Part shown: piece after piece, positions 23,194-29,249 of the stretch
Layout of the letters: each line of letters starts with the position of its first letter
Position numbering within the stretch: position 1 is the stretch's first letter
Source of the DNA: a bacterium
GTDB lineage: Bacteria; Myxococcota_A; UBA9160; UBA4427
Length of the DNA stretch: 64,000 bases
Reading direction: 5' to 3'
Assembly (NCBI GenBank): GCA_024742285.1
Contig: JANSYR010000014.1
Coordinates: 1-64,000 of the forward strand
The notes under the pieces: model-generated
What the model was told of the DNA's origin: nothing
Seen by the model: only the letters and a program-made list of their open reading frames with translations
Database searches by the model: none
Program-made: the position numbers and the translations under genes

Positions 23194-24234
23194 ATGGTGG
23201 TCGACCGCGCTGAAACGATCCGGCCCGAGTCGGGGCAGACCTGTGCGATTCGCACGCTGTCGACCCTCGTCTCCGCGCTCGATCGGTGGAACGTCGACGT
23301 CGATGCGGTGCTGGCCACCGCGGGCCTCGCAGTCGACGAGATCGACGATTGGGAGAGGCGCATCACCGTCACTCAGTACGTGACCGTCTGGCGCGCCGCG
23401 CACGGGGCGACCGGTGACGACGCGATCGGTCTCCACGTGCTGGAGGGCTTCGACCTTCAGGACGTGCTCAGCAACATCGTCTACATCGCCTCTTCCAGCG
23501 CGACGCCGAGAGAGGCCTTCGAACGCGTCTCGCCCTTCATCCGCCAGCACCACACCGGCATGCGGGTGGACCTCTTCGAGGACGCGGGTCGGACCTTCTG
23601 TCGGATGGACGCTTCCTGCTGGGCCGGCGAGCGGATGCTCGTCGACCATTTCGTGGGCCTGATGGTCAAGATCGCACCCCACGTCGTCGGGGCGCAGCGC
23701 CTCGAGGAAGTCTGGTTCCGTCACGCGGAGCCCGCGTATGGCGACGAGTACGCGCGGATCCTCGACGCGACGGTTCGTTTCGACATGCCTCACGACGCGG
23801 TGGTCGGTCTTCCCGCCGATCTCGACCGGCCGCTGCCGCGGGCCGACGAAGTGCTCTGCACGATGCTGGAGCGACAGGCGGCCGACGCGCTCGAGCGGCT
23901 GCCCCGGATCTCGACCTTCGCGAGCTCGGTGCGCGCGCGGATCGAGTCGCTGCTCTCGACGGGCGACCTGACGGCGGAGCGCGTGGCGGACTCGCTCGGT
24001 CTCTCGGCACGCACGCTAAGGCGCCGACTCCGGGACGAAGGCGTGACCTACCAGGCCCTGCTCGACGGGGTCCGCTGCGAGCGGGCCCGCGCGGCGCTCG
24101 CCCGGCCCGGGGCCTCGGTCGGGGAGGTCGCGTTCGAGCTCGGGTTCTCCGATACCTCGGCTTTCCACAAGGCCTTCCGTCGCTGGACCGGCCAACGGCC
24201 GAGTGACGTCGCGGCAGAGGCGAGCGAGCCGTAG
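23194..24234 (+). CDS. AraC-family transcriptional regulator
   Basis: A 346-residue regulator with an N-terminal arabinose-binding-like sensor domain of the OruR/ArgR type (residues about 20-210) and a C-terminal AraC DNA-binding domain (about 245-340). The two helix-turn-helix segments are TAERVADSLGLSARTLRRRL and VGEVAFELGFSDTSAFHKAF, followed by the family ending FRRWTGQRPSD. It is transcribed away from the Coq4 gene across about 200 bp and precedes a cupin gene by 63 bp; either could be its target. Confidence 0.92.
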   Translation: MVVDRAETIRPESGQTCAIRTLSTLVSALDRWNVDVDAVLATAGLAVDEIDDWERRITVTQYVTVWRAAHGATGDDAIGLHVLEGFDLQDVLSNIVYIASSSATPREAFERVSPFIRQHHTGMRVDLFEDAGRTFCRMDASCWAGERMLVDHFVGLMVKIAPHVVGAQRLEEVWFRHAEPAYGDEYARILDATVRFDMPHDAVVGLPADLDRPLPRADEVLCTMLERQAADALERLPRISTFASSVRARIESLLSTGDLTAERVADSLGLSARTLRRRLRDEGVTYQALLDGVRCERARAALARPGASVGEVAFELGFSDTSAFHKAFRRWTGQRPSDVAAEASEP

Positions 24235-24297: not shown

Positions 24298-24708
24298 ATG
24301 CCCATCGATCCCGGCCCCCACGATCTCGACCGCTTGCGCCCGATTCTCGCGCCCGACGGGAACGCGACCCTCCACGAGACGTCCCCGGACTTCTATCAGA
24401 AGCTCGACGACGAGTTTCCGACGTTCAAGGGTCATCATCTCATCCAGAAATTCGACTTCGATTCGCCCTGGCCGACCTGGGAAATGCACCCGGAGGCCGA
24501 CGAATTCGTGTACCTCCTCTCAGGAGACGTGGAGTTCCGGGTCAAGGCGCCCGGGGCGTCCGAGACGAGGATCCGCGTTTCGAAGCCCGGGTGTTACGTG
24601 ATGGTGCCGCGCGGGCATTGGCATACCGCGGAGCCGCTTCAGCCGACGTCGATGCTCTTCGTCACGGCCGGAGAGGGCACCCGGAACGAAATCGAGCCCC
24701 CCGAGTAG
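24298..24708 (+). CDS. Small single-domain cupin protein
   Basis: A 136-residue beta-barrel protein. Cupin motif 1 is EMHPEADEFVYLLSGDVEFRV, with His and Glu ligands; motif 2 is GCYVMVPRGHWHTA. The sequence resembles small cupins related to 3-hydroxyanthranilate dioxygenase or ectoine synthase, but the exact group is unclear. A strong AGGAGG precedes the ATG. It probably binds a transition metal and acts as a dioxygenase, isomerase or sensor. Confidence 0.85.
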   Translation: MPIDPGPHDLDRLRPILAPDGNATLHETSPDFYQKLDDEFPTFKGHHLIQKFDFDSPWPTWEMHPEADEFVYLLSGDVEFRVKAPGASETRIRVSKPGCYVMVPRGHWHTAEPLQPTSMLFVTAGEGTRNEIEPPE

Positions 24709-24760
24709 CGGCCCCGACCTCGTGTCCGGGAGCGCGCCGCGGGGACGCCAGGAGCGGCCG

Positions 24761-27220
24761 GTGACGAGCGACGACTACGAACACATGGGGGCGTTCTACC
24801 TGGGACGCCCGGTGGACGCGGAGAGCGGCGAGACCCTCCCGGCTCCGCTGCTCTACGACTCGAAGGACCTCACGACCCACGCGGTCCTCCTCGGCATGAC
24901 CGGCAGCGGGAAGACCGGCCTCGCGATCTCGCTCCTCGAGGAGGCGCTGATCGACGGGGTTCCGGTGATCGCGATCGATCCGAAGGGCGACCTGGGCAAC
25001 CTCATGCTCTCGTTCCCGGATCTCGCTCCGTCGGACTTTCGGCCCTGGATCGACGAGGCGGCGGCGGCCCGGGAGGGTGACACGCCGGACGCCTTCGCGG
25101 CGAAGCAGGCGGCCGCCTGGCGAGCGGGCCTGGCCGACTGGGGCCAGTCACCGGATCGGATCGCGCGGCTCGAAGCCGCCGGGGAGCGCGTCCTGTATAC
25201 GCCCGGCAGTCGCGCGGGGACGCCGCTCTCGATGCTGCGGGCCCTCGACGCGCCGCCCGCGGCCCTGCTCGAGGACGAGGAGACCTTCCGCGAGCGGGTC
25301 GAGGCGAGCGTGGCGGGTCTGCTCGGCCTCCTGGGCATCGCCGCGGACCCCCTCCAGAGTCGGGAATCGATCCTGCTCTCGACCCTGGTCGATCGCGCCT
25401 GGCGCGAGGGACGCTCCCTGGATCTCGTCGCGCTGATCCAGCAGATCCAGAAGCCGCCGGTCGAGCGGGTCGGCGTGATGGAGATCGAGACCTTCTTCCC
25501 CGCGGCGGATCGCATGGGGCTGGCGATGCGGCTGAACAACCTGCTCGCGTCGCCCAGCTACGCGGCGTGGATGGAGGGGCAGCCGATGGACGTGTCGGCG
25601 CTGCTTCGTGCGCCCGACGGAAGGCCACGGCTCTCGATCATCTCGATCGCCCATCTCGGCGAAGCGGAGCGCATGTTTGTCGTCACGCGGCTGCTCACCG
25701 AGATCGTCTCCTGGATGCGCACGCAGTCCGGCTCGCCTTCGCTTCGTGCGCTCGTCTACATGGACGAGGTCTTCGGCTATTTCCCGCCGACGGAGAATCC
25801 GCCGTGCAAGCGGCCGATGCTGACGCTCCTGAAGCAGGCGAGGGCCTACGGCGTGGGCTGCGTCCTCGCGACCCAGAATCCGGTCGACCTCGACTACAAG
25901 GGGCTCTCGAACTGCGGGACGTGGTTCCTGGGCCGGCTGCAGACCGAGCGCGACAAAGCGCGGGTGATCGACGGGCTCGAGAGCGCCGCGAGTGGCGTCG
26001 CCGCGCGCATGGATCGCGCGACGCTCGACCGGACCCTGTCCGGTCTCGCGCCGCGGACCTTCGTCGTGAACAACGTGCACGAGGACGAACCGGTCCTGAT
26101 GAAGTCGCGCTGGGCGCTTTCCTATCTGGCGGGGCCGCTCTCGCGGGCGCAGATCAAGCAGCTCGGGGAAGCGCAGCCGCCTCCGTCGCCGCCGCCCGTC
26201 GCTTCTGCGGTGGAGGCCGCGGCGAAGACGTCGGCCCCCGACGCGGCGCCCGAAGCGGCACGGGTCGTGCTCCCGGCGTCGGCCAACGAGTCCGTATTGC
26301 CGATCGCCGAGCCGCTCGCCCCGGGCGATCGCGTCGTGTACCGACCGGTCCTGCTCACGCGCGTGTCGGCCCACTACGCCAACGCGCGAGCCGGGGTCGA
26401 CGAGTGGACGAAGGTCGTGCTCGCAGCGCCGCTCGCGAGCGACCTCGAGGGCGCACCCTGGGAGGGGGCCGACCGACTCGTCGGATGGCCCGAGCTCGAC
26501 GAGACGCCGCGCGAGGGCGCAGCCTTCGGCGCGGTGCCTGCGGCGGCGGAGCGGGAGAAGAGCTTCACGCGGTGGGCCAAGCAGGCGAAGACGGCGGTCT
26601 ACCGCGATCACCCGATCTCGCTCTTCAAGTCGAAGAAGCCGAAGGCGGTCTCCGCGATCGGCGAGAGCGAGGGGGCATTTCTCGGCCGCCTCGCGGACCT
26701 GCGTCGAGAAGGCCGCGAGGCCGAGCTCGAGAAGCTGCGCAAGAAATACGCACCGAAGCTCGCGCGGCTCCAGGAGAAGATCGATCGCGCCGTCGAGCGG
26801 GTCGCGCGCGAAGAGGAGCAGTACGAGGATCGTCGGAACCAGACCATGGTCTCCGGCCTCGCGACCGTCGTGGGGGCGCTCTTCGGTCGCAAGCTCGCGA
26901 GCGTCGGCAACGTCCGCCGCGCCGCGAGCACCGCGAAGAACGTGAGCCGGACCCAGCGCGAGCGCGGGGACATCGCCCGCGCCGAGGCGCGCGTCGAGGA
27001 GTACCAGCAGGAGCTGGCCGATCTCGACGCCGACTTCCAGGAAGCGTTGGCCGAGGCGGAGGATCGCGCGGCCGACTTCGAGCCCGAGGTCGAGTCGCTG
27101 CGCATCAACACGAAGAAGGCCGACCTCGACGTCGAGCGGATCGCGCTGGTCTGGGTGCCCTTCCGATCTTCGGCGGACGGATTCCCGGAGCCACTGGCCC
27201 GGCTCGAGAAGATCGAGTGA
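24761..27220 (+). CDS. HerA-like ATPase with C-terminal coiled coil
   Basis: An 819-residue ATP-binding protein of the HerA/FtsK superfamily. Walker A is GMTGSGKTG (about residues 45-53), ALVYMDEVFGY (about 330) is Walker B, and ATQNPVDLDYKGL follows as in HerA relatives. An Ala/Pro linker near 485-520 leads to an unassigned domain and a charged coiled-coil region (about 640-780). It may translocate DNA or another polymer; no nuclease such as NurA is adjacent. The GTG at 24761 has AGGAG at good spacing; an in-frame GTG at 24722 would add 13 residues. Its stop overlaps the DUF3465 gene as GTGA. Confidence 0.87.
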   Translation: MTSDDYEHMGAFYLGRPVDAESGETLPAPLLYDSKDLTTHAVLLGMTGSGKTGLAISLLEEALIDGVPVIAIDPKGDLGNLMLSFPDLAPSDFRPWIDEAAAAREGDTPDAFAAKQAAAWRAGLADWGQSPDRIARLEAAGERVLYTPGSRAGTPLSMLRALDAPPAALLEDEETFRERVEASVAGLLGLLGIAADPLQSRESILLSTLVDRAWREGRSLDLVALIQQIQKPPVERVGVMEIETFFPAADRMGLAMRLNNLLASPSYAAWMEGQPMDVSALLRAPDGRPRLSIISIAHLGEAERMFVVTRLLTEIVSWMRTQSGSPSLRALVYMDEVFGYFPPTENPPCKRPMLTLLKQARAYGVGCVLATQNPVDLDYKGLSNCGTWFLGRLQTERDKARVIDGLESAASGVAARMDRATLDRTLSGLAPRTFVVNNVHEDEPVLMKSRWALSYLAGPLSRAQIKQLGEAQPPPSPPPVASAVEAAAKTSAPDAAPEAARVVLPASANESVLPIAEPLAPGDRVVYRPVLLTRVSAHYANARAGVDEWTKVVLAAPLASDLEGAPWEGADRLVGWPELDETPREGAAFGAVPAAAEREKSFTRWAKQAKTAVYRDHPISLFKSKKPKAVSAIGESEGAFLGRLADLRREGREAELEKLRKKYAPKLARLQEKIDRAVERVAREEEQYEDRRNQTMVSGLATVVGALFGRKLASVGNVRRAASTAKNVSRTQRERGDIARAEARVEEYQQELADLDADFQEALAEAEDRAADFEPEVESLRINTKKADLDVERIALVWVPFRSSADGFPEPLARLEKIE

Positions 27221-28787: not shown

Positions 28788-29078
28788 TCAATTCGTCATT
28801 CTGTGTTCGGGAACGGCGTAGCCGGCGTTCAGCAGGGCCGTGACCACGTCGTCGATCGAGAGCTTCTCGTCGTCGAAGGTCACGCTCACGGTGTTCTCGT
28901 TCATGTCGGTCTCGACCGACGCCACGCCGAGTTTCTGGACGGCCGCACGGGCCTTCGCGGACGAGCCGCCTCAGGTGACGCCCGGCGTCTCGAGCACGTA
29001 CGAGACGTCGGCGGCCGCCGCCGTACCCGCGAACGCGAGCACACTGGCGAAGGCCAGGATGGACTTCAGGATCTTCAT
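28788..29078 (-). CDS. Exported heavy-metal-associated (HMA) protein, probable selenoprotein with in-frame UGA
   Basis: A 96-residue frame if the TGA at 28973-28971 is read as selenocysteine (residue 36). It has a clear signal peptide (KILKSILAFASVLAFAGTAAAA) and then an HMA domain: YVLETPGVT-U-GGSSAKARAAVQKLG, TVSVTFDDEKLSIDDVV, LLNAGYAVPE. In MerP/CopZ-type domains that position is the first Cys of GMTCxxC; here the second Cys is Ser. The frame stays open and domain-like for 60 codons after the TGA, and a SECIS-like hairpin follows it. The alternative is a TGC-to-TGA nonsense mutation, giving a pseudogene. GGAGGAG lies upstream of the ATG. Confidence 0.7.
28938..28956 (-). promoter_or_regulatory. 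Candidate bacterial SECIS hairpin downstream of the in-frame UGA
   Basis: Counting from the base after the UGA, nucleotides 15-33 can fold as GAAGGCC / CGUGC / GGCCGUC. That is six pairs with one A-G mismatch and a 5-base loop with G in its second position. Bacterial SECIS elements are known to be small hairpins about this far after the UGA, with a G among the first two loop bases. Folding was done by eye. Confidence 0.45.
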
Positions 29079-29249
29079 CGGATCTCCTCCCGTCGGGAAT
29101 ACGGACGACGCCGGAGTCTGGTTTCCAGGCGCCGTCCCCCGAGAATCGGCCCGTCGGAGGCGTCGCTTGATGACGCTCCTCACGCTTCGGGGCGCGATCC
29201 CGCCATCGATCGGACCATTCGGGCGTCGTCGGGTCGGGCGAAGACCGGG

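Follow-up and report, generated by a model that had tools for sequence, protein, structure and literature searches.

The minus strand of the window (the whole stretch of 64,000 nt analyzed here) carries at 28788-29078 a gene whose product is very probably a translated selenoprotein, judging from sequence comparison. An initial annotation had taken it for a probable selenoprotein, and this reading is now supported by a conserved UGA, Cys at the same column in two homologues, a constrained hairpin downstream and the Sec genes of the genome. The features of the locus are as follows.

28788..29078, minus strand: very probable selenoprotein gene, coding for a 96-aa exported HMA-domain protein, with the ATG start at 29078 and the terminal stop TGA at 28790-28788 (translation, Pfam HMA, orthologues, selection)
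28971..28973, minus strand: in-frame UGA, very probably read as Sec (U36), where the HMA metal-binding loop has its first Cys (21-member alignment)
29010..29078, minus strand: signal peptide, approximately residues 1-23, without a lipobox Cys (read from the sequence; the layout is common to all members)
29084..29090, minus strand: Shine-Dalgarno-like GGAGGAG, 5 nt ahead of the ATG (sequence)
28938..28956, minus strand: SECIS-like hairpin with its core GGCC-CGUGC-GGCC at 28953-28941 (invariant core, consensus fold, bSECIS constraints)

Retranslation reproduced both the coordinates and the description given initially. Read from 29078 to 28788, the minus strand gives MKILKSILAFASVLAFAGTAAAADVSYVLETPGVT-TGA-GGSSAKARAAVQKLGVASVETDMNENTVSVTFDDEKLSIDDVVTALLNAGYAVPEHRMTN-TGA, in which a signal peptide and the start of an HMA domain lead to the TGA at 28973-28971, precisely at the first metal-binding Cys position, and the frame then stays open, with a match to HMA, up to the next stop. 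With the TGA taken as U, the product is MKILKSILAFASVLAFAGTAAAADVSYVLETPGVT-U-GGSSAKARAAV...VPEHRMTN (96 aa). Its N terminus resembles an ordinary signal peptide, a sign of export to the periplasm, and G-rich stretches are found ahead of the start codon in most of the orthologues. When U is taken as Cys, Pfam HMA (PF00403) spans residues 32-87 with an E value of 1.8e-11 and a score of 44.7 bits, above the gathering threshold of 24.8. The predicted fold is the beta-alpha-beta-beta-alpha-beta of HMA domains (pLDDT 72, a moderate confidence due to an alignment of only two sequences), and its structure matches are MerP, CopZ and Atx1. HMA domains are textbook CxxC chaperones of soft metals, this loop being the mark of the metal-binding members and not of the whole fold family. 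Here, the loop is UGG[T/S], with Thr or Ser at the second ligand position; the Ser in place of the partner Cys, which had been pointed out as unusual, was confirmed and fits the family pattern. Since the mature protein contains no Cys at all, the selenolate is its sole thiol-type group.

We searched 80 genomes of the order and found the gene in 21, the source genome included; two further matches (L038 and L039), to HMA domains that belong to long proteins and have ordinary CxxC sites, were left out of this count. Exactly one in-frame TGA, at an identical column, is present in 19 of the 21 members (the source genome plus 18 others), and the remaining two have Cys codons there, TGT in L025 and TGC in the distant L037, i.e., the UGA/Cys pairing that the initial annotation had suggested looking for. 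A TGA in one column of 19 out of 21 members is not a chance outcome, and its maintenance in the genomes of 18 other species means that it is no base error. Past the TGA, every frame runs on for ca. 60 to 68 codons to a second stop, and the motif TPGV[V/T/K]-U-GG[T/S] runs through the family with few exceptions. In the closest pair of members, pN/pS is 0.39 upstream of the TGA and 0.35 downstream, so both halves are under selection as protein. The Sec form seems to be restricted to the order, as no additional Sec members were found in 91 genomes of the class or 379 of the phylum, and no relatives were found on viral contigs. A scan of genome contigs with a Cys-codon pattern, which could not pick up TGA forms, gave as its sole match a Cys homologue in the public MAG OFTM229 (L040:1063-1359); the contig of the TGT form (G039:C512) is apparently the same one. 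In another class of the phylum there is a distant exported HMA protein (L090, G360:C497) with a normal CAMC site, and the TGA reported for it by the search does not sit at the Cys column.

The hairpin downstream of the UGA, proposed initially for its bacterial SECIS placement and for the G at loop position two, is present as described. In this sequence it has a 4-bp stem and a 5-nt loop (CGUGC, with G as the second base), and two outer pairs, beyond an A.G mismatch, extend it to 28956-28938. There are 17 nt from the UGA to the stem and a 21-nt spacer to the loop. Constraints published for bSECIS elements are a loop of 3-9 nt, an upper stem of 4-16 bp, a G among the first two bases of the loop, a UGA-to-loop distance of 16-37 nt and an MFE of <= -7.5 (PMC13188914); all the values found here (loop of 5 nt, stem of 4 bp plus 2 past the mismatch, G as the second loop base, a distance of 21 nt, -7.8 kcal/mol) lie within them. 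Folding energy is unexceptional when compared to shuffled sequences (z = -0.49), and therefore the case for the hairpin rests on its conservation. Across the family it takes the form GGCC-CGUG[C/A]-GGCC, and bases 18-30 past the TGA read GGCCCGTG[C/A]GGCC in 20/20 close members, the TGT copy included. Among these 20, same-residue pairs have 100% identical codons at +6 to +10 relative to the UGA, against a mean of 46% and a maximum of 69% in other 5-codon windows (log10 P of about -48 under independent codon choice, a figure that overstates the case because relatedness is ignored). Codon +6 encodes K, R, M, T or A and yet its third base is G without exception. The consensus fold consists of the 4-bp stem, the 5-nt loop and the two outer pairs, one of which is altered on both sides in four sequences with pairing kept; covariation is otherwise nearly absent because the stem is invariant. 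Altogether, the hairpin, including its silent sites, is under strong constraint at the RNA level. An Rfam scan across the locus gave no match, a result that says little on bacterial SECIS elements. Elsewhere in the source genome the motif occurs at chance level (7 places versus 9 for a reversed control), none of these other copies has a TGA at equal spacing, and the genome yielded no further selenoprotein that has this element. As for the TGT homologue (L025/L040), it retains the invariant GGCCCGTGAGGCC hairpin, best read as a fossil SECIS that would have been left by a recent change from Sec to Cys; because of the poor resolution of the family tree, the direction of this change rests mainly on the retained hairpin.

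The source assembly (6.5 Mb, 95% complete) contains the components whose presence had been proposed as a check of the selenoprotein reading, namely, a tRNA-Sec gene (67.8 bits; SeC(tca) by ARAGORN, anticodon tca), SelA (522.9 bits), SelB (655 aa, 283.9 bits) and SelD (259.4 bits). Of the 19 genomes with the TGA form, 18 had SelB above the cut-off, and the remaining one is 76% complete; outside this group, the count was 45 of 61 genomes of the order (63/80 overall). This association with the gene is consistent but weak (Fisher p=0.06) because Sec is widely used in the order. A genome from the same genus (G007) gave two SelB-like matches above the cut-off (G007:C428 and G007:C211), perhaps by contamination (6%) or by a real duplication.

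These data bear directly on two other ways of explaining the in-frame TGA. It might be an ordinary stop, in which case the gene would be a pseudogene or a 35-residue signal-peptide product would be all that is made. The gene, like most members of the family, does use TGA as its terminal stop as well, but an internal TGA fixed in 19 species, purifying selection on the frame behind it, Cys in the column of homologues and a downstream hairpin constrained at silent sites make this explanation very improbable; in practice, conservation has already refuted it. Even less probable is the decoding of UGA as some other residue (e.g., Trp, through an altered code) or a generic read-through. A frame open across the TGA is what this would produce, but the column holds Cys in the homologues and never Trp, the same codon terminates the gene in most members, and the genome has all four components for Sec.

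In both sequence and fold, the nearest relatives of the protein are metallochaperones of the MerP, CopZ and Atx1 types. MerP (TIGR02052) is its best NCBIfam match (45.6 bits, E=7.7e-12), and the two share a signal peptide, a single HMA domain and a similar length; the best solved-structure match is 1osd, and the nearest plasmid matches are annotated as merP, with 34-38% identity. However, the score is about half of the curated cut-off (92.55), UGG[T/S] takes the place of the CxxC of MerP, and the gene is not located beside mer genes. MerT was above the cut-off in none of the 19 TGA-bearing genomes, and the 20 neighborhoods compared had no conserved adjoining genes. A MerP of a mer operon, acting as the periplasmic partner in mercury import by MerT, was therefore rejected as the identity of the protein. 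Two NCBIfam families show that HMA-type selenoproteins are already known, and the single-Sec UGG[T/S] form is a variant among them. NF041115 is likewise small and HMA-related and contains Sec in its metal loop, but it has two (UxxU) where this protein has one, and with 26.8 bits versus a cut-off of 95 it was rejected. NF045683 (MerT/CopZ fusion-like, heavy-metal transport) is again a selenoprotein containing a CopZ/HMA domain, although fused to a membrane transporter, and scores 20.4 here versus a cut-off of 375. A 2026 catalogue of 119 selenoprotein families has no single-Sec UxxT/UxxS HMA family (PMC13188914). The GOS survey of 2008 names a "Mercuric transport protein MerP" selenoprotein, with two metagenome sequences and no motif given (PMC2398784), and that name is absent from the 2026 catalogue (PMC13188914). 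It is possible that this was an earlier record of the same family.

Regarding function, we judge a role of the selenolate as metal ligand to be the most likely, followed by a redox role. In known metallochaperones, the Met and the second Cys of GMxCxxC matter, and both are missing here, where GV[V/T/K]UGG[T/S] is found instead; this counts against the metal-ligand reading, as does the lack of conserved metal-handling genes adjoining the gene in the 20 neighborhoods. In the redox alternative, which we consider less likely, U-G-G-T/S would work as a UxxT/UxxS-like site for the reduction of peroxides or would form selenenylsulfides with periplasmic thiols, on an HMA scaffold no longer able to bind metal. 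Thr or Ser does replace the metal-binding partner Cys throughout the Sec form, several redox selenoproteins are listed with UxxT/UxxS sites, and most uncharacterized selenoproteins have been argued to be redox proteins (PMC13188914). Nevertheless, the fold is that of HMA and not thioredoxin-like, the mature protein lacks a second Cys, and no conserved redox partner gene was found in the same 20 neighborhoods.

On balance, we rather favor a lineage-specific periplasmic HMA selenoprotein with a lone selenolate as soft-metal ligand, which would be a scavenger or carrier independent of mer. SelB, recruited by the GGCC-CGUG[C/A]-GGCC hairpin, would deliver Sec-tRNA at the UGA, and the full-length product would then be exported to the periplasm. 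There, the selenolate that opens the U-G-G-T/S loop, predicted to be the only Cys/Sec-type chalcogen of the mature protein, may bind soft metals, e.g., Hg(II), Cu(I) or an organomercurial. Another protomer, a small thiol or a partner protein would supply the second ligand, and the protein could act with high affinity. More tentatively, the free-standing periplasmic HMA proteins with a lone selenolate (UGG[T/S]), found in one order only and with Sec in nearly all members, could be a new selenoprotein family, a soft-metal trap or carrier outside the mer operon.

An HMA family that has one Sec and has given up the other position provides a test of whether metal capture can do with one selenolate, the alternative being that the fold has been recruited for redox chemistry. 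The near absence of Cys forms suggests that the function depends on selenium. Ordinary gene callers can be expected to truncate or miss a gene with this UGA, and thus the selenoproteome of the lineage is probably under-counted. In the window, a short-chain dehydrogenase and an SMP-30-type lactonase are encoded directly beside the gene. Upstream, there are an AraC-type regulator (23194-24234), a small cupin protein (24298-24708) and a HerA/DUF87-type ATPase (24722-27220), and all of these are ordinary.
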